64,000 bases of DNA from Burkholderiales bacterium PBB6 (GTDB lineage Bacteria > Pseudomonadota > Gammaproteobacteria > Burkholderiales > Burkholderiaceae_C), in the NCBI GenBank assembly GCA_002255925.1, contig NKIH01000007.1, positions 62,001 to 126,000 on the forward strand, written 5' to 3'. The stretch's first letter is position 1. Each line of letters opens with the position of its first letter. A model generated the notes under the pieces. That model worked only from the letters and a program-made list of their open reading frames with translations. It made no database searches and had not been told where the DNA came from. The position numbers and the translations under genes were made by a program. Positions 29 to 64,000 of this stretch are shown here, piece by piece.

Positions 29-805
29 TCAGAGGCCGCTGGCCGCGAAGTGGGGGTTGTCGAAACCGGGCTTGCCGTAGCGCAGGTCAGCGCCATCAGA
101 CACCACGGTCACGCGGCCACCGGCGGCGCGCAGCACGGCGTCGCCGGCGGCAATGTCCCACTCCATCGTGCGGCCCAGGCGCGGGTACAGGTCAGCCTCA
201 CCGGCCGCCACCAGGCACAACTTCAAAGACGAGCCAGCGTTGGTACGCGAAGCCACCACGCGGCCATTCAGGAAGGCGTCGAGCGCGGTTTCATCACCAT
301 GTGAGCGGCTGGCCACCACCGTCAGGCCCTCAGCGGGCACGGCGCGGCACGCGATGCTGCGGCGGCCAGCGGCGTCTTCCAGCCAGGCACCATGGCCCAC
401 GGCACCACCAAACAAGCGGCCAATCGCCGGGGCATACACCAGGCCCAGCACGGGGCGGCCGCCATCGATCAAGGCGATGTTGACGGTGAACTCACCGTTG
501 CGGCTGATGAACTCCTTGGTGCCGTCCAGCGGGTCGACCAGGAAGAAGCGGCCTGCCACCTCGGGCACGTGCCCGGCCGCCACGGCTTCTTCAGCCACCA
601 CCGGAATATCAGGGGCGATCTTGGCCAAGCCGGCCAGGATGACGGCTTCGGCTTGCTGGTCGGCCAGCGTCACCGGCGATGCGTCAGATTTGTTCTCCAC
701 CGAAAAGTCAGTGGCATAGATGCCCATGATGACTTCACCGGCTGCATGCACCAGGGGCGTCAGCTCTTCCAGCAAGCGGGGCAGATCGAGGTTGGCTTGT
801 GACAT
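29..805 (-). CDS. cysQ: 3'(2'),5'-bisphosphate nucleotidase CysQ
   Basis: A 258-residue inositol-monophosphatase-fold enzyme that hydrolyses PAP (and possibly PAPS) to AMP, removing the inhibitory by-product of sulfotransferases and PAPS reductase; cytoplasmic. Visible metal-site motifs are AEE at residues 71-73, DPLDGTKEF at 91-99 and WDIAAGD at 216-222. The frame stays open to 850, but the ATG at 805 gives the normal CysQ N-terminus ([10 protein letters not shown]). It is divergent from the cysD reading frame, with about 85 bases between the likely starts, which fits shared control of sulfate activation and PAP removal. Family assignment is secure; substrate preference is inferred. Confidence 0.93.
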
Positions 806-822
806 TGGTGGATTTGCAGCGG

Positions 823-871
823 TTAGGGGGTGCCCGATTGTGCACGGCACATGCGAAAATCAGCCCCCTAA
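823..871. promoter_or_regulatory. Inverted repeat in the cysQ-cysD divergent intergenic region
   Basis: An 8-base inverted repeat, TTAGGGGG at 823-830 and CCCCCTAA at 864-871, encloses a second one (GTGCC and GGCAC, 830-850). It lies between the divergent cysQ and cysD starts, so it could be an operator for a shared regulator or a leader hairpin. No CysB-type site was recognised. Function is inferred from position only. Confidence 0.3.
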
Positions 872-891
872 AACATTTATTGACCAGACTT

Positions 892-1764
892 GTGTCGACC
901 CTGACGCCCGACATCGCTGAACTCAACCAACGCCGCCGGCGTGCGGTGGAGTTGCGCCTGGACGGCCTCACGCTCAACAACATCAAGGAGTCGACCGGCC
1001 TGAGCGTGCCCACCATCATCAGCGCCTGGCAGGCGTTTGTGGCGGGCGGCTGGCAGGCGATTGATGTGGCGGCCCGCGGCAGGCCCCGCGGCGACGGCCG
1101 GGTGCTGAGCGCCGAGCAGGAAGCCGAGTTGCGCCACAGCGCGCTGCACACCCCACCTGAGCAGCACGGCCTGCCGGCTGGCTTGTGGGACGTGGCCGCA
1201 CTGCAAACCCTGGCGCAGCAGCGCTGGGGCGCCGAGTTGAACAACCGCGCGGCCACCCGCCTGCTGGAGCGCTGGCAGCTGGGTGTGCAGGGCCTGCGCG
1301 AAACCGCCGAGCGCCACCCGGCTCATCTCGACTGGCTGGACACCACCTGGCAAAGCCATGTGAAACGCGGCCAGCAGGGTGGTGCGCGCCCGTGGTGGGC
1401 AGGCAGCATCAGCCACCCTGACGTGGCAGCACCCGGCGGCGTGCGTGTGGCCATCACGCCGCGTGGCAGCCTGCACTGGCTGGGCACCCGCCACCTGAGC
1501 AGCGCAGAAGATATCGAATCCTTTCTTGAGCGCTTGCCCGAAGCGCACAGCCAGGGCGCCTGCGTGCATCTGCACGGCGTGGCGTTCGGCGCGTCACCGC
1601 GGCTGCTGGCCTGGCTGGCTGCGCGGCCGCACATCGAGGTGCTGGCTTGCCCGGTGGCACCCAACCGGCCGCAAGCCAAAGCCGCCATCCCTGTTTCAGC
1701 CCCAGCTGCCGTGCCCAAACCGGCAGTTTCCTCACTTTCCATCCCGCCCAGAACGGACCATCCC
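892..1764 (+). other. IS630-like helix-turn-helix and degenerate DDE region fused to CysD
   Basis: This is the N-terminal part of the cysD reading frame. Residues about 10-50 form a helix-turn-helix ([20 protein letters not shown] and following, ending ..VPTIISAW). Residues about 65-125 resemble the second winged helix of IS630/Tc1 transposases (RGRPRGDGR, then SAEQEAEL). Residues about 165-265 resemble the transposase catalytic core ([12 protein letters not shown], then a FLERL stretch, [19 protein letters not shown] and VAPNRPQ), but the expected acidic residues are absent. A Pro/Ala-rich linker joins it to CysD. I infer a domesticated, catalytically dead transposase acting as a DNA-binding domain. 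The resemblance is by eye. Confidence 0.55.
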
Positions 1765-2664
1765 ATGAGCTTGACCCACCTTCAGCGTCTGGAAGCCGAG
1801 AGCATCCACATCATGCGCGAGGTCGTCGCCGAGGCTGACAACCCGGTGATGCTGTACTCCATCGGCAAGGATTCAGCCGTGATGCTGCACCTGGCCCGCA
1901 AGGCGTTTTACCCCGCCCCGCCGCCCTTCCCGCTGCTGCACGTGGACACCACCTGGAAGTTCCGGGCGATGTACGAGATGCGCGATCGCATGGCCAAGGA
2001 ATTGGGCATGGACCTGCTGGTGCACCACAACCCTGAAGCGCAGGAGTTGGGCATCAACCCGTTCACCCACGGCTCGCAGATCCACACCGACATGTGGAAG
2101 ACGCAAGGCCTGAAGCAGGCGCTCGACAAGTACAACTTCGACGTGGCCTTTGGCGGCGCCCGCCGCGACGAGGAAAAGAGCCGCGCGAAGGAGCGCATCT
2201 TCTCGTTCCGCTCGGCACAGCACCGCTGGGACCCGAAGAACCAGCGCCCGGAACTCTGGCGCCTGTACAACGGCCGCAAGCAAAAGGGCGAGTCGATCCG
2301 CTGCTTCCCGATCTCGAACTGGACCGAGCTCGACATCTGGCAGTACATCCACCTCGAGAACATCCCGATCGTGCCGCTGTACATGGCGGCTGAGCGCCCG
2401 GTGGTGGACCGCGACGGCACGCTCATCATGGTCGACGACGACCGCTTCCCGCTGCGCGAAGGCGAAGTGCCGATGATGAAGAAGGTGCGCTTCCGCACGC
2501 TGGGTTGCTACCCGCTGTCGGGCGCCGTGGAGTCGGAAGCCGAGTCGCTCACCGACATCATTCAAGAGATGCTGCTGACGCGCACCTCCGAGCGCCAGGG
2601 CCGCATGATCGACCACGATGCCGCAGCCTCGATGGAGAAAAAGAAGCAAGAGGGGTACTTTTGA
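892..2664 (+). CDS. cysD: Sulfate adenylyltransferase subunit 2 (CysD) with an in-frame N-terminal transposase-like extension
   Basis: CysD is the small subunit of ATP sulfurylase, which makes adenosine 5'-phosphosulfate from sulfate and ATP. The C-terminal 299 residues (from the ATG at 1765) are a full-length CysD, with the PP-loop SIGKDS at CysD residues 32-37 and the [15 protein letters not shown] block. The frame is open without a stop for about 290 codons upstream. With a GTG at 892 the product is 590 residues (TTG at 880 and GTG at 799 are alternatives), whereas CysD is normally about 300. The ATG at 1765 has no strong Shine-Dalgarno sequence, but internal initiation there remains possible. 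The next gene is cysNC, 115 bases downstream. Confidence 0.85.
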
Positions 2665-2779: not shown

Positions 2780-4684
2780 ATGGCCCACGTATCAGACCTG
2801 ATCGCCAGCGACATCGAGCAATACCTCAAGCAGCACGAGCGCAAGAGCCTGCTGCGCTTCATCACCTGCGGCTCGGTGGACGATGGCAAATCGACCGTCA
2901 TCGGCCGGCTGCTGTATGAATCGAAGATGCTCTTCGAAGACCAGCTCGCCGCTATCGAAAACGACTCCAAGAAGTGGGGCACGCAGGGTGGCGACATCGA
3001 CTTCGCCCTGCTGGTGGACGGCCTGGCCGCCGAGCGCGAGCAAGGCATCACCATCGACGTTGCCTACCGCTTCTTCAGCACCGACCGCCGCAAGTTCATC
3101 GTCGCCGACACCCCGGGCCACGAGCAGTACACGCGCAACATGATCACCGGCGCGTCCACCGCTGACGTGGCTGTGATCCTGATCGATGCGCGCAAGGGCG
3201 TGCTGACGCAAACCCGTCGCCACAGCTACCTGGTCAGCCTGATCGGCATCCGCAAGGTGGTGCTGGCGATCAACAAGCTCGATCTGGTCGACTACTCGCA
3301 AGAGGTGTTCAACCGCATCAACGAGGAATACCGCGAGTTCGCCAAGCAGATCGGCCTGGACGACATCACGTCCATTCCGTTGTCGGGCCTGAAGGGCGAC
3401 AACATGCTGGAGCGCAGCCCGAAGACCCCGTGGTACCAGGGCCCGACGCTGATGGGTTTCCTGGAAACCTGCGAGATCGACGAAACCCGCCTGCAGAAGG
3501 AAGCCTTCCGCCTGCCCGTGCAGTGGGTGAACCGCCCGAACCTCGACTTCCGCGGCTTCTGCGGCGTGATCACCAGCGGCGCCATCAAGCCGGGCGACCG
3601 CATCCGCGCCCAGCCCTCGGGCAAGGAAAGCACCGTCGCGCGCATCGTCACGCTGAACGGTGACCTGCCTGAAGCCGTGGCCGGCCAGAGCGTGACGCTG
3701 ACGCTGGACGACGAGATCGACATCTCGCGCGGCGACGTCATCTCGCTGGCCGAGAGTCCAGCCGAAGTGGCTGACCAATTCGAAGCCACCGTCGTCTGGA
3801 TGACCGACGAGCCGATGCTGCCCGGCCGCCCTTACCTGCTGAAGATCGGCTCACAAACCGTGACGGCCACGGTGACCGAGCCGAAGTACAAGGTGAACGT
3901 CAACACGATGGAGCACCTGGCCGCCAAGAAGCTCGATCTCAACGAGATCGGCGTGGTGAACCTGGCACTTGACCGCCCGATCGCGTTTGATCCGTACAAG
4001 ATGAACCGCGATACCGGCGGCTTCATCCTGATCAACCGCCTGACCAACAACACGGTCGGTGCCGGCATGCTGCACTTCGCGCTGCGCCGCGCCCACAACA
4101 TCCACATGCAGCCGGTGGACGTGAACAAGCAGGCCCGTGCCAGCGCCAAGGGCCAGCGCCCCGGCGTGGTGTGGTTGACGGGCTTGTCAGGGGCCGGCAA
4201 GTCGACGATTGCCAACATCGTGGAGCGGAAGCTGCACGCGATGGGCCGCCACACCTACCTGCTGGACGGCGACAACGTGCGCCATGGCCTGAACAAGGAC
4301 CTGGGCTTCACCGAAGCCGACCGGGTGGAGAACATCCGCCGGGTGTCCGAGGTATCGCGCCTGATGGTGGACGCCGGCCTGATCGTGATCACCGCGTTCA
4401 TCTCGCCGTTCAAGTCGGAACGCGCAATGGCCCGCCAGCTGATGCAAGACGGCGAGTTCGTCGAAGTGCACGTGGACACCCCGCTGGCCGTGGCGGAAGA
4501 CCGCGACGTGAAGGGCCTGTACAAGAAGGCACGCCGCGGCGAGATCGCCAACTTCACGGGCATTTCCAGCCCTTACGAAGAACCGGACGCACCGGAGCTG
4601 CGCGTGAACACCACCACCTGCTCGGCCGAAGAAGCCGCGGATGTGGTGATTGCGCGCATTCGTGAGCTGGGATTGATCGACTGA
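2780..4684 (+). CDS. cysN: Bifunctional sulfate adenylyltransferase subunit 1 / adenylylsulfate kinase (CysNC)
   Basis: A 634-residue fusion of the GTPase subunit of ATP sulfurylase (CysN, about residues 1-440) with APS kinase (CysC, about 455-634), like NodQ. The GTPase motifs are GSVDDGKS at 31-38, DTPGH at 110-114 and NKLD at 165-168. The kinase P-loop is GLSGAGKST at 468-476, followed by [11 protein letters not shown]. With CysD it produces APS and then PAPS, the sulfate donor for assimilation and for sulfotransferases. It follows cysD on the same strand and is closed by a strong terminator. The length matches known CysNC fusions. Confidence 0.97.
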
Positions 4685-4777: not shown

Positions 4778-5269
4778 TCAGGCTTGCTTGCGGCGACGCG
4801 ACATCAGGCCCAGAGCGGCCAGGCCTGCGGCGAACATCGCGTAGGTTTCCGGTTCCGGCACCGGGGTGATGGAGTAGGCCACGTCGTAGCCACCCTTCTT
4901 GCCCTTGGACACGTCCGTGTTCAGGAAGATCTTGTCGGTCTTGTTCAGCGTGAACGTGCCGGTGTACAGGCCGGGCGACAGCGTTGCCGGCTCGGTCAGG
5001 ACACGGATGTCGTCGACGCCGTTCGAGTACTTGTCACCCGAGGTGCTCAGCCAGACCACGTCAACGGCCGTCTTGCCGGCGGTGGCGAACTGGAAGGAGT
5101 ACGAATAGGTACCCGCAGCCAGCGTAGCCATGAAGCTGGCGTTGCCGGTCAGGTGAGCATCATTGCCGGTGAGCGAGTTGTAGCTCAGGTCGGTGCCGAT
5201 GTCGGTATTGACGGCGAAGGAGGCGACTGACGTCACTGCCAGAGCCGAAGCGATGATGAATTTTTTCAT
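4778..5269 (-). CDS. PEP-CTERM sorting-domain protein (copy 1 of a tandem pair)
   Basis: A 163-residue exported protein with a signal peptide (MKKFIIASALAVTSVASFA), a small beta-rich middle region of unknown function, and a C-terminal PEP-CTERM signal at about 137-163: VPEPETYAMF, a hydrophobic stretch, then SRRRKQA. Such tails are recognised by exosortases and removed during transfer to the cell surface or matrix. The likely processing enzyme is XrtB at 36.4-37.3 kb. It is a close paralogue of the next upstream gene, including its promoter region. Shine-Dalgarno GGGGG precedes the ATG. Confidence 0.93.
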   Translation of the reverse strand: MKKFIIASALAVTSVASFAVNTDIGTDLSYNSLTGNDAHLTGNASFMATLAAGTYSYSFQFATAGKTAVDVVWLSTSGDKYSNGVDDIRVLTEPATLSPGLYTGTFTLNKTDKIFLNTDVSKGKKGGYDVAYSITPVPEPETYAMFAAGLAALGLMSRRRKQA

Positions 5270-5539: not shown

Positions 5540-6031
5540 TCAGGCTTGCTTGCGGCGACGCGTCATCAGACCCAGAGCGGCCAGACCAGCGGCGAACATC
5601 GCGTAGGTTTCGGGTTCCGGCACCGGGGTGATGGAATAGGCCACGTCGTAGCCGCCCTTGGTGGGCTTCACGGCGTCGATGTTCAGGAAGATCTTGTCGT
5701 TCTTGGTCAGCGTGAACGTGCCGGTGTAGGTGCCAGCCGTAGCCGAAGCGTTCGAGAACAGAACCTGGAGGTCGTCAGCGCCGGTGAACGAGTTGTCGCC
5801 CGTCGTGCTCAACCAGGCAGAAGCCAGGGTGGTCTTGTTGTCGCGTTCGAACTGGAACGAGTACGAGTAGGTGCCGGCCGTCAGGTTGGCGAAGAAGCTG
5901 GCGTTGGCGGCCAAGTGAGCATCATTGCCGGTGAGCGAGTTGTAGCTCAGGTCGGTGCCGATGTCGGTGTTGGCGGCGAAGGAAGCGACTGAAGCCACTG
6001 CCAGAGCCGAAGCGATGATGAACTTTTTCAT
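5540..6031 (-). CDS. PEP-CTERM sorting-domain protein (copy 2 of a tandem pair)
   Basis: A 163-residue paralogue of the 4778-5269 product with the same length. The N-terminus (MKKFIIASALAVASVASFAA, then NTDIGTDLSYN) and the C-terminal VPEPETYAMF, hydrophobic and TRRRKQA signal are nearly identical. The middle (about residues 65-110) differs most, for example ERDNKTTLASAWLSTTGDNS. The substrate role for exosortase is established for the family; the mature function is unknown. It has its own promoter and terminator. Confidence 0.93.
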   Translation of the reverse strand: MKKFIIASALAVASVASFAANTDIGTDLSYNSLTGNDAHLAANASFFANLTAGTYSYSFQFERDNKTTLASAWLSTTGDNSFTGADDLQVLFSNASATAGTYTGTFTLTKNDKIFLNIDAVKPTKGGYDVAYSITPVPEPETYAMFAAGLAALGLMTRRRKQA

Positions 6032-60884: not shown

Positions 60885-63800
60885 AGCGACGGCGCGGTCA
60901 CGCCCAGGGCCTGCCACAGGGCCCGAGGCTGCTGCGCCAGTGACAGCGGCACGATGTAGTCGGTGAAGCCCATGGCGCGCAGGCGCCGGGCCGGCGCGCC
61001 GATGTCGAACACCGCCACGCGGCAGCCCGAGGCAATCGCCGCGCTCAGCACGTAGCTGTAGGTTTCCGGCCAGATCGACGGCAGCAAGATCAAGTCAGGC
61101 GCCGTCCGGGCCAGCAAGCCGGGCAACTGGGTGTCGTCATAACGGCCCAGCACGTGCACGCCGGCGGCCGTCAGCGCCGCATCGTCCATCGAATAGCCCA
61201 GCAGGCTGATGCGCGTGCCAAGCTGGTCGCGCCGGCTCTGCAGCGCCAGCTGGCGCACCACCTCATAGCCCTTGATCACGCCGAGCGCGCCGATCACCGC
61301 CACATGGCGCACGGGGCCACGCTCCGCCCAGGGGAGCGGGTCGGGCGATGCCACTTCATCGTGCGGGGCCACCTGCACACCGAGGCCGGGGAAGTAGCGC
61401 GCCATGCGCTGCGCCACATCGTCGTCGGGCACCCGCACCTGTCGGGCGGCGCGCAGCAGCGTTTCAGCGTCGCGGCGCCAGTGGACGATGCTGAGCGGCT
61501 CGTCGGTCGGGCCGGCCAGCGGGGCCACGCAGCGGTCACAGGTGGCCGCCTCCACGGGCTCGCCGCAGAACTGCCCGTCGGCATTCACCAGATTGATGCG
61601 CGGACACACCAGGTGGTAGTCGTGCAGCGTCACGTCCATCGACACGCCCAGCCGCTGCACCAGCGTCTGCATGTGGCGGCGGAACACGAGCGGGAAATCA
61701 ACGAGGTGGTGCAGTTGCACGGCCTCGACTGCCAGCGGCTGCAGCAGGCTGATCAACTCGTCCAGCGGCTGCTCGCCTTCCAGCGGAATGACGCCCAGGT
61801 TGGGCAGCTCCAGCACATCGGGCGCGCGCAGGCACAGGCCCTGCCCGTCAGCCGAAGGGCGCAGCAGCAGCACACCGCGGCCGAGCGCTTGCAGGCGCCG
61901 GGCTTCTTCGGTCTCGTGGCGCGCGGTGCCGCCGCCGCGGTCGTGGCTGACCATCAACACCACCGGGCCGGGCATGGCGGCCTGGAGCCGGGCGATGTCG
62001 AGGCGGGCCCGCACGCCGCGCAGCGGATCGTCTTTCAGCCAGTCGTCGATGCGCTGCTGGTAATCGGGATACAAGCCTTGCAGGGTGCTCAGCGCGGCCT
62101 GGATGCGCGGGCTGGTTTCACCCTGGAACGAGACGGAGCCCAGGTGCTCCACATACACATCGGTGGCCGCCAGATGGCGCCAACCGGCCCGGCTGGCACG
62201 CATGCACCAGTCGTTTTCCTCGCCGTAGCCGCGGCCGAAGCGCTCGGCGTCGAGCAGGCCGATGTCGGCCATGCAGGCCCGGCGCAGGAACATGCAGAAG
62301 CCCATGCCGGTGGGCACTTCAATGCCCACGCCGGCGTGGGCCTCGGCCATCAGGTGATCGACCTCGGCGGGCGGCAAATCAGGCAGCGCCGGGTTGTCGA
62401 AGTTCATCAGCGGATAGCTGAAGATCGTCGCGTTGTTGGACATCGGCGTGATGCTGGCCACCGTGGTGTCTCGGCGCGCATGGGCCGTGATGCGGCTCAG
62501 CCAGTCGCCGTGCACCCGGGTGTCTGAGTTCAGGATGATCACGTCGCGCTCATCGTGCAGCGCCAGACCGCGGTTCACCGTGCCCACGAAGCCCAGGTTC
62601 TGCGGATTGACGTGCAGGCTGATCAGACCGGCCTGTGCCAGCCAGCGCAAGCGGGCGCTCAAGGCGGGCTCAGGGCTGCAGTCGTCCAGCACCACCAGCT
62701 CGAACGGCAAGGGCTCGGCGGCGGCCAATACAGACCACAAACAACGCAAGGTTTCCTGCGCGCCGGCATACACCGGCACCACCACATCCAGCGTGGCCGC
62801 AGCCTGCCGGGCAGCGCTGTCGCCGCGGGGCGTCAGGCCTTGCCACGGTGCATCGGCCAGGTAGTTCACACCGTCCAGCGACTGCGGCGTCTGCCACGGC
62901 AGCAAACCGTGGGTGGGCCGCGGCACGTTGGCGGGCAAGCCCGCCAGCAGCGCAGCCATGCGGGGGTCGGCCACGCGGGCGCTCAAGACCCGGCCCATGC
63001 GCTGCGCCAGCGGCTGGTTCAGCTTCGGTGCGGTGTCAAAGCCGGGGCAGGTGGCGCGGCCTTCGCGCCAGCCCCAGGCCAGGTAGTGCAGCAGCGGGTC
63101 CAGCGTGCTGGCCCGCACATCGGCATAGGTCTGCAGGTAAAACGGTGCGTTGAACCACGCGCTGGGCGAGCAGCCCTCGAAGCGGCCAACCAGCGCGTAG
63201 TGCAGCAGGCGGTTGATGCCGGGGTGGCGGCGGCCGGGCAGCTGGCCCGTGTAGAAGCGCGCATCGAACAAGGCCTGCGGCACCAGCACCCGGGCGTCGC
63301 CGTGCATCACGTAATGGCGCAGCGCCGACAAGCTGCCCAGCTCGCCCGGGGCCAGCTGGCTCACATAAAGCGTTGAATCAAACAGGCCGGTGGCGCGGGT
63401 GAGCTTGATCTCCAGGCGATCGGCCCGCTCGCTCTGGCCCGCTGTGCGGCGCAGCAACAGCAGGGTTTGCAGCGCCAGGCGGCACCACCAGCGTTTGCGC
63501 AGCCAGTGTTGCAGGCGGCTTTCCAGCAACTGGGGCTGCACCTCGAAGGTGCCTGGTCCATCGCCTGGGGCAGCCTTGCTGGTGGTCGGCAACAAGGCGT
63601 CTTGCCAGCCCCAGCTCTTGGCCAGCCGCAGGGCCAGGGCCCGATCGGCCGGCAAGGCGGCGTGCATCGACCCCGCATGCATGAGGTGCTCGATCACCAG
63701 CCGGCCGGTGCGCTCGCGCCAGGCCAGGTCACCGGAGCGATCAGCGGCCTGCAGCAGCGGCCACAGTTGCCGGCGCTCCAGCACCAGGCCGTCACCCAGC

Positions 63801-64000
63801 GGCTGCCCGGCGACGCGCACTTCCAGCTGCAGGATCGAGGCGTCGCCGCCGTGCAGCTGAGCCCAGAGCGCACCGGGCAACTCGATCTCGAAGCCCAGGC
63901 CCTCGGCGGGCACACCCAGCGCGGCGGCCACATCGGCCCGGTCCACCCGGCGGATGGGCACATCCACCAACGCGCCGTGGCACCACAACTCAACCGGGCC
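60875..64000 (-). CDS. Giant two-domain glycosyltransferase (GT2-GT4), cut by the window end
   Basis: At least 1,041 codons; the frame is open to the last base (GPVELWCHGALVDVPI), so the N-terminus lies outside. Layout: an N-terminal beta-rich domain, a region parallel to residues 35-170 of the 49.9-52.6 kb protein (FDSTLYVSQLAPGELGSLS, LLHYALVGRFEGCSPSAWFN), a GT2 domain (LDVVVPVYAGAQETLRCLWS, VIILNSDTRVHGDWL, GYGEENDWCMRA) and a C-terminal GT4-like domain (VLMVSHDRGGGTARHE, HVAVIGALGVIKGYEVV, ILLPSIWPETYSYVLSAA). Paralogue of the kps-linked transferase. Probably makes a surface polymer. 10-base convergent overlap with gshA. Confidence 0.88.
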   Translation of the reverse strand, partial: GPVELWCHGALVDVPIRRVDRADVAAALGVPAEGLGFEIELPGALWAQLHGGDASILQLEVRVAGQPLGDGLVLERRQLWPLLQAADRSGDLAWRERTGRLVIEHLMHAGSMHAALPADRALALRLAKSWGWQDALLPTTSKAAPGDGPGTFEVQPQLLESRLQHWLRKRWWCRLALQTLLLLRRTAGQSERADRLEIKLTRATGLFDSTLYVSQLAPGELGSLSALRHYVMHGDARVLVPQALFDARFYTGQLPGRRHPGINRLLHYALVGRFEGCSPSAWFNAPFYLQTYADVRASTLDPLLHYLAWGWREGRATCPGFDTAPKLNQPLAQRMGRVLSARVADPRMAALLAGLPANVPRPTHGLLPWQTPQSLDGVNYLADAPWQGLTPRGDSAARQAAATLDVVVPVYAGAQETLRCLWSVLAAAEPLPFELVVLDDCSPEPALSARLRWLAQAGLISLHVNPQNLGFVGTVNRGLALHDERDVIILNSDTRVHGDWLSRITAHARRDTTVASITPMSNNATIFSYPLMNFDNPALPDLPPAEVDHLMAEAHAGVGIEVPTGMGFCMFLRRACMADIGLLDAERFGRGYGEENDWCMRASRAGWRHLAATDVYVEHLGSVSFQGETSPRIQAALSTLQGLYPDYQQRIDDWLKDDPLRGVRARLDIARLQAAMPGPVVLMVSHDRGGGTARHETEEARRLQALGRGVLLLRPSADGQGLCLRAPDVLELPNLGVIPLEGEQPLDELISLLQPLAVEAVQLHHLVDFPLVFRRHMQTLVQRLGVSMDVTLHDYHLVCPRINLVNADGQFCGEPVEAATCDRCVAPLAGPTDEPLSIVHWRRDAETLLRAARQVRVPDDDVAQRMARYFPGLGVQVAPHDEVASPDPLPWAERGPVRHVAVIGALGVIKGYEVVRQLALQSRRDQLGTRISLLGYSMDDAALTAAGVHVLGRYDDTQLPGLLARTAPDLILLPSIWPETYSYVLSAAIASGCRVAVFDIGAPARRLRAMGFTDYIVPLSLAQQPRALWQALGVTAPSLQS

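Follow-up and report, generated by a model that had tools for sequence, protein, structure and literature searches.

The window, by which we mean the whole stretch of 64,000 nt of DNA analysed here, contains a cysD reading frame that stays open far upstream of the usual CysD start. This raises the question whether the upstream codons belong to a protein that the cell uses and what they would contribute to an enzyme of sulfate activation. The openness of the frame by itself is little proof, because in this DNA long frames often arise spuriously; on the antisense strand, an ORF of 232 aa (877..1575) runs across part of the very same stretch. About 290 open codons ahead of the CysD start, and no stop between the two parts, had been described in an earlier note on this DNA. 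Both statements hold: 291 codons precede the ATG at 1765, and 892-2664 is a single frame.

The fusion gene and its transposase-like extension

The stop-free frame extends over 799..2664 (+), and translation from the GTG at 892, which lacks a Shine-Dalgarno sequence, gives a protein of 590 aa (892..2664, +; stop codon 2662-2664) that consists of a transposase-derived domain, a linker and CysD. The CysD part (1765..2664, +; 299 aa from the start ATG 1765) matches NCBIfam TIGR02039 over residues 297-590 (E 2e-150, 500 bits, cut-off 396.6) and PRK12563 with 547 bits against a cut-off of 413. Like the proteins of these families it is a whole CysD, scores far above the cut-offs, has an intact PP-loop (SIGKDS) and is followed by CysNC (2780..4684, +; a CysN GTPase fused to an APS kinase, Pfam GTP_EFTU and APS_kinase); the difference lies in the approximately 290 extra N-terminal residues of the fusion. 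Judged by its sequence, this half is intact and is predicted to have ATP sulfurylase activity together with CysN. No second CysD was found in the genome besides the fused one. A Pro/Ala-rich linker joins the halves, as previously proposed, at 1669..1764 (+); it is modelled with low confidence, and its length differs among species. The internal CysD ATG is preceded by a Shine-Dalgarno-like CGGA (1754..1757, +; dG -3.2). Scanning positions 700-2800 for sigma-70 promoters and terminators yielded no promoter match and no terminator on the coding strand.

The extension is composed of a first helix-turn-helix (HTH1; 907..1047, +), an RGRPRG motif (1075..1092, +), a second, HTH_33-like helix-turn-helix (1111..1272, +) and a degenerate RNase H-like core, formerly of the DDE type (1294..1647, +). 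It matches the IS630 transposase model NF033545 over residues 14-144 (E 3e-14) with 53 bits, under the family cut-off of 100, while Pfam HTH_29 and HTH_33 match HTH1 and the second HTH, each below cut-off. The profile comparison of residues 1-290 with the IS630 family, which the earlier note had suggested, gave a probability of 100 and an E value of 1.8e-42 over 253 columns (hhalign). Within the RGRPRG motif, which sits between both HTHs and which we take to be GRPR-like, comparable to the GRPR of Tc1 and Pax, the residues R60, G61 and R62 are invariant among 24 diverse extensions. In the AlphaFold model of the extension (mean pLDDT 89.8), helices are present for the two HTHs, followed by a mixed alpha-beta core. 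Foldseek ranked TnsB, ISCth4 and retroviral integrases high, and its matches include reverse transcriptases; these matches are weak, with one E < 0.001 and low TM-scores, and a sequence search of solved structures with the extension profile returned a single chain at E 0.9, hence nothing useful. The AlphaFold model of the full-length fusion is too uncertain for conclusions on how the domains dock, given a mean pLDDT of 75.8 and a pTM of 0.47.

Active transposition can be ruled out, as the DDE residues are lost. When 11 extensions (10 fused and one separate gene) were aligned with IS630 transposases, the first Asp of the catalytic triad was gone, LDN was replaced by xxG (by LHG in six of them) and the NPxE stretch was missing, so that all three acidic positions are lost. 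The IS630 family belongs to the IS630-Tc1-mariner superfamily. With its transposases (NF033545) the extension shares the two HTHs, the GRPR-like motif between them and the RNase H-like core, with 253 homologous columns; it differs by the lack of the DDE residues and of the C-terminal part and by its fusion to an enzyme. In nine genome pairs picked for closeness, dN/dS ranged over 0-0.20 in HTH1, 0.05-0.41 in the second HTH and 0.20-0.48 in the core, compared with 0-0.86 in the linker and 0.02-0.12 in CysD, where the zeros stem from the pair G014-G010 and are based on few changes. The extension is under purifying selection, strongest in HTH1, its best-conserved section. The helix-turn-helix, the second winged helix and the DDE-type core without acidic residues that had been read from the letters alone were thus borne out by profiles, AlphaFold helices and hhalign, and an origin of the extension as an IS630-like, catalytically dead transposase domain is well supported.

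Among the 26 records found in a search of plasmids, the 12 listed match the extension at 26-31% identity; approximately seven of these are annotated as IS630, and no fusion is claimed in them. Unannotated stretches of the Cupriavidus plasmids NZ_AP025174.1, NZ_CP032520.1 and NZ_CP043441.1 encode relatives of the extension with 30-31% identity, which are perhaps IS630 copies.

Fused, shortened and separate forms among relatives

Counting the genome of the window itself, 15 of 16 genus members match the fused protein, and in all 14 complete genus loci the fusion is in frame despite differing linker lengths. G002 was counted as partial: its contig is suspect, and unrelated sequence precedes what is present of the extension, namely its end. 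Neither CysD nor the extension was found in G009, a genome of the same genus that is 95% complete and consists of 1220 contigs; this points either to assembly loss or to another route to sulfur. Profile searches yielded matches in 47 of 299 genomes of the family, 12 of 369 of the class and 12 of 398 of the phylum, and among these further fusions were found in G329, G177, G260, G206, G091, G145, G286, G098, G249, G235, G491, G694, G685 and G590. G283, in which the contig ends within the gene, and a second copy in G329 (contig C76) were left out. The fusion is present in other genera and in other families of the class. Most of the remaining matches, of which a subset was opened, are frames of about 300-370 codons, as in IS630 elements. 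The sole match of a GTDB scan, in Zobellella endophytica (NZ_PXYG01000001.1, L043), shows 38% identity and has the same architecture, with CysNC after the fused gene. The search for the same fusion in related genomes, proposed earlier as a check, hence had a clear outcome: because all 14 genus loci as well as other genera and families are fused in frame, the fusion is not a local accident. A chance frame or an assembly error is rejected by its conservation in many genomes and by the purifying selection.

Some fusions have kept one half of the domain. In G018, G025, G336 and G394 (L232, L233, L231 and L229), CysD is joined to the second HTH and the core, and HTH1 is lost; by hhalign, this core-only extension is related to the full extension with a probability of 93.8 (E 1.7e-7). 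G018, G025 and G394 possess a second CysD elsewhere in the genome. In G590 (L069), all that is left of the extension is HTH1 with RGRPR and a short linker. Since G018, G025, G336 and G394 do without HTH1, specific binding is not the only use of the extension.

A different arrangement prevails in the family of G696, in which 31 of 201 genomes match the domain. With G1145 excluded (a weaker match only, 97 bits, in a frame of 303 codons), each of the 30 opened loci encodes the domain in a gene of its own, unfused, upstream of cysD. The gap to cysD ranges from -4 to 628 nt, these lengths being approximate because some CysD starts were set on TTG by a mechanical rule. The two 4-nt overlaps (L240, L260) are a possible step towards fusion; the separate gene of L258 looks broken, with a stop at ~168 aa.

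A first CysD tree with 40 rows placed 25 fused, three adjacent and one plain CysD together (support 93/95) and suggested a single clean clade of fused CysDs. A second tree of 52 rows does not bear this out; its input had been enlarged by 26 plain CysDs from the class, two of which the pattern dropped. In it, fused and adjacent rows lie on one side, with six plain rows among them, and the fusion label requires six changes. The four core-only fusions form one strongly supported group in this tree, and so do the five adjacent rows. Because plain CysDs interleave with fused ones at the cost of six label changes, repeated gain or loss is likely.

The neighbouring genes are similar across these loci. 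Sharing the promoter region with the fusion, a divergent gene at 29..805 (-) encodes a CysQ-like member of the inositol-phosphatase family (Pfam Inositol_P, E 3e-53, 29-850; the start at 805 was read from the sequence), which is presumably CysQ. The divergent cysQ-type motif occurs in all 14 genus loci and in nine other fused loci. Both cysQ and TauE/SafE are found on the divergent side in G025, and in G235 TauE/SafE is directly beside the fusion. A divergent SLC13-like transporter motif was detected in 28 of the 30 separate-gene loci. CysN follows downstream in 34 of 36 loci (three of the 36 being separate-gene loci); of the two loci without it, G694 offered 687 nt only. With cysQ, TauE/SafE and CysN as neighbours, the domain therefore sits among genes for sulfate uptake, activation and PAP removal, the functions of these gene families.

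A candidate operator and the chains that may be made

Ahead of the fusion start, at 864..884 (+), lies a candidate operator, CCCCCTAAAACATTTATTGAC, a TAAA-N3-TTTA dyad that resembles the terminal inverted repeat of IS630. The 21-nt site is present in all 14 genus promoters, where a leave-one-out matrix recovers each, and within the 64-kb window 864-884 is the only place that scores ≥14. An in-frame TGA lies between the candidate operator and the fusion start in G011, G015, G008, G005 and G013, so the site is non-coding in these genomes. Allowing up to two mismatches, the pattern was matched 16 times across the 16 genomes, and 13 of these matches lie at the fusion, the other three elsewhere; the reversed-pattern control gave eight in the same set. 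The three non-fusion matches (G000, G010, G014) lie 46-71 nt ahead of one orthologous gene, identified as TauE/SafE by Pfam TauE. In G000 (contig C4) this second operator copy, L127 1501-1517, is placed before the TauE/SafE gene and after a gene which we take to be xdhC-like.

Six of the 13 genus TauE/SafE upstreams beat all 500 shuffles (G000, G010, G014, G003, G006, G007) when scored with a matrix that included the same genomes' own cysD sites; the candidate operator thus stands before TauE/SafE in six of the 13 genus members that have this transporter. In G003 and G006 the TauE/SafE site shares unusual bases with the genome's own cysD site. Weak sites (scores 4.6-6.4) were seen in G001 and G013 (p 0.010), G008 (0.048) and G005 (0.054), and none in G011, G012 and G015 or in nine upstreams from other genera; G235 was left out because the anchoring motif is missing. 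The orientation of the candidate operator at TauE/SafE is opposite to the gene. Before fusion-less cysD genes the site was not found in any of 24 cases (best score 6.1 vs 19.4-37.5 in the genus), a control that covers 600 nt each and mostly another CysD subtype, with a promoter further up being possible. Among the genera outside the matrix, g163 scores strongly (21.6-21.9), g77 weakly (12.5) and the others less, and the site is hard to recognise in G145, G491, G685 and G235. The operator claim rests on this conservation, because palindrome searches in single promoters reach p ≤ 0.03 in five of 30 only (G329, G260, G206, G091, G098). The earlier idea of a link to transcription thereby gains a conserved candidate operator and, with TauE/SafE, a second candidate target gene.

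The near IS630 relatives G232, G071 and G281 carry the terminal repeat TATTGATCCGGCACTAAACATTTGAACT. In the separate-gene loci up to 14 bases are identical to it, and the mean alignment score is 22.8, whereas 100 shuffled repeats average 13.2 (sd 1.2, maximum 17.3); the bases concerned also encode conserved residues of the N-terminus. The likeness is lower in the fusion upstreams (mean 17.5 vs 14.2; one of 100 shuffles as high). Among the 30 upstreams of this test (29 fused plus the separate gene of G696), six show likeness at p ≤ 0.05, some with matches away from the operator; it lies clearly at the operator in G329, G177 and G260. The window differs from an IS630 element in that no second terminal repeat was found in it, neither within three mismatches of CTAAAACATTTAYTG nor at a score ≥14. 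In the simplest reading, domain and site would derive from the same element.

The earlier note had posed an either/or: the cell makes a DNA-binding sulfurylase subunit, or the CysD region is translated separately from internal starts. No ATG or GTG occurs in the 66 nt preceding the CysD body in G590, G018, G025 and G394. In G590 the single start codon from -198 to the CysD body is a TTG at -39; in G394, 149 nt ahead of the CysD body are free of start codons; in G025 the nearest is at -123, and G018 has a GTG at -69. G336 has a TTG at -45 and an ATG at -42. A plain CysD could therefore be made in G336 from the ATG at -42 and in G590 from the TTG at -39, and it seems less likely in G590, G018, G025 and G394 than in G336. 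In G590, rated 100% complete, no CysD was found other than the fused one; with this sole CysD and only a TTG at -39, the fused chain is the simplest source of CysD there. It would also be the simplest source of the gene products in question in G018, G025, G336 and G394.

The start-site statistics of the whole group point to internal initiation as well. Where the CysD body has a start codon, which is the case in 28 loci (G002 included), the Shine-Dalgarno energy at this start has a mean of -4.33; linker windows average -1.73 (Wilcoxon p 5e-7). The internal site of the window itself (dG -3.2) is not significant alone, 14% of its linker windows being as good; an internal Shine-Dalgarno sequence is absent in G145 and no better than the linker in G491. 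In 30 upstreams (29 from fused loci, one from a separate gene) the mean energy at the nearest start of the extension is -0.62, and 21 of these starts are GTG or TTG. The best among all in-frame extension starts averages -2.17; G000 is one of several genomes in which the chosen start is preceded by another in-frame start with a better Shine-Dalgarno sequence. As most fusions have retained a Shine-Dalgarno-like site ahead of the CysD ATG, plain CysD is probably also made, and for most species we infer two products, little fusion and more plain CysD. Rather than one of the two alternatives, the evidence suggests both, since some relatives are without a nearby ATG or GTG and the fusions as a group keep the internal Shine-Dalgarno sequence.

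Proposed role, competing explanations and known systems

We consider it reasonably probable that a domesticated transposase DNA-binding domain, attached to the enzyme, autoregulates sulfate activation. As the comparisons show, an IS630-type transposase landed directly upstream of cysD-cysNC and lost its catalytic residues; the dead transposase may then have turned into a host DNA-binding protein. One family has it as a separate gene before cysD, and in other lineages the reading frames show it joined to CysD via a flexible linker. The protein most likely binds the TAAA-N3-TTTA site at its own start, a putative transposon-end relic, and in some species it may bind the same site at the gene of the TauE/SafE (sulfite/sulfate) transporter; binding would tune the transcription of sulfate uptake and activation. 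Being attached to CysD, the extension probably senses the engagement of CysD with CysN or substrate, similar to PutA-type enzyme-regulators. In most species, as the start-site statistics suggest, the internal start with its Shine-Dalgarno-like site would yield ordinary CysD and the poorly initiated GTG or TTG start less of the fused form. More specifically, the transposase domain and half a transposon end may have been co-opted as repressor and operator and welded onto the enzyme, such that CysD-CysN occupancy sets the transcription of cysD-cysNC, cysQ and the transporter gene; this version is tentative, falling somewhat short of an even chance.

The persistence of core-only fusions without HTH1 in four genomes, which form one strongly supported group, together with the weaker but real constraint on the core (dN/dS 0.20-0.48), would be expected if the extension were translated with CysD as a non-regulatory passenger that serves folding, stability or assembly or that tethers CysD near DNA. 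HTH1 is, however, the best-conserved part of the extension, the G590 fusion keeps only HTH1 and RGRPR, and in the genus the DNA site is conserved alongside the extension, which makes a passenger rather unlikely. We assign a comparably low probability to the explanation that the site is a promoter element or is bound by another sulfur regulator, e.g. a CysB-like LysR protein, and that the extension has another DNA target or none. That the extension binds the site is a sequence-based proposal, the site also occurs at a distant transporter gene, and the fusion-less control spans just 600 nt; against this stand the failure to find the site ahead of any of the 24 fusion-less cysD genes (none above 6.1), its orientation opposite to the gene at TauE/SafE and its resemblance to a terminal repeat from the transposase family to which the extension itself belongs.

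Two products without a lasting fusion, namely CysD from the internal start and a DNA-binding part freed by linker cleavage or early termination, would agree with the internal Shine-Dalgarno sequence conserved in the group, with a linker that is long, fast-evolving and of low confidence in the model, and with the unfused form in the second family. Yet no stop separates the parts in any of the fused loci that were read, and there are fusions lacking a nearby ATG or GTG, one of which, in G590, is the sole CysD found in its genome; we regard this explanation as quite improbable. A chance open frame, an assembly error or a recent insertion in a single genome would draw on the frequency of spurious long frames in this DNA, but with the same fusion in many independent genomes and under purifying selection its probability is negligible. 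The preferred reading is thus autoregulation by the attached transposase-derived domain.

LysR regulators, e.g. CysB, are the usual explanation for how proteobacteria control sulfate assimilation. Here, a metabolic enzyme seems to bear its own regulator, built from a mobile element: the enzyme may help to control its own pathway, because the conserved short DNA sequence before the gene may be a binding site. PutA and other 'trigger enzymes' are bifunctional enzyme-regulators. As in PutA, a metabolic enzyme would share one chain with a DNA-binding domain, both being encoded here by one conserved reading frame, and a candidate site would be located at the own promoter, here in all 14 genus loci; fold and enzyme are different, and in the present case the DNA-binding part is transposase-derived and its binding predicted. 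The Pax/Tc1-type paired domain has the layout PAI-GRPR-RED and resembles the extension in the order HTH, GRPR, HTH and in its transposase origin, whereas Pax proteins are eukaryotic transcription factors without an attached enzyme. The PAPS reductase of Tuber melanosporum, reportedly proposed to have transcriptional activity, is likewise an enzyme of sulfur assimilation with a proposed action on transcription; it differs as a fungal moonlighting enzyme for which no transposase domain is mentioned. In BzdR, a DNA-binding domain is linked to a shikimate kinase-like domain that has lost its activity and has an effector role (PMC3602430). BzdR shares with the fusion the sequence of DNA-binding domain, linker and enzyme-like domain; its enzyme-like domain is inactive, whereas the CysD of the fusion looks intact.

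Literature searches for the fusion and for domesticated bacterial transposase regulators revealed no report of a CysD fusion among the matches listed, and the combination of IS630 with cysD retrieved no paper. PMC10853773 was rejected as a prior report: its passages on CysD and transposases treat DndC and Tn7-type ATPases, a different subject. A CysD annotated from the internal ATG would conceal the fusion. The relatives display a series of states, from the separate gene and overlapping genes to fusions with an internal start, fusions without a nearby one and half-domain fusions. If the proposed binding is true, a bacterial transposase and its terminal repeat would have become a transcription factor and its operator, with possible intermediates alive.

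Elsewhere in the window, two alike short proteins of 163 aa each are encoded in tandem at 4778-5269 and 5540-6031 (-), with C-terminal ends that we take to be PEP-CTERM-like. A tRNA-like call with an undefined anticodon is located at 63722-63811 (-).
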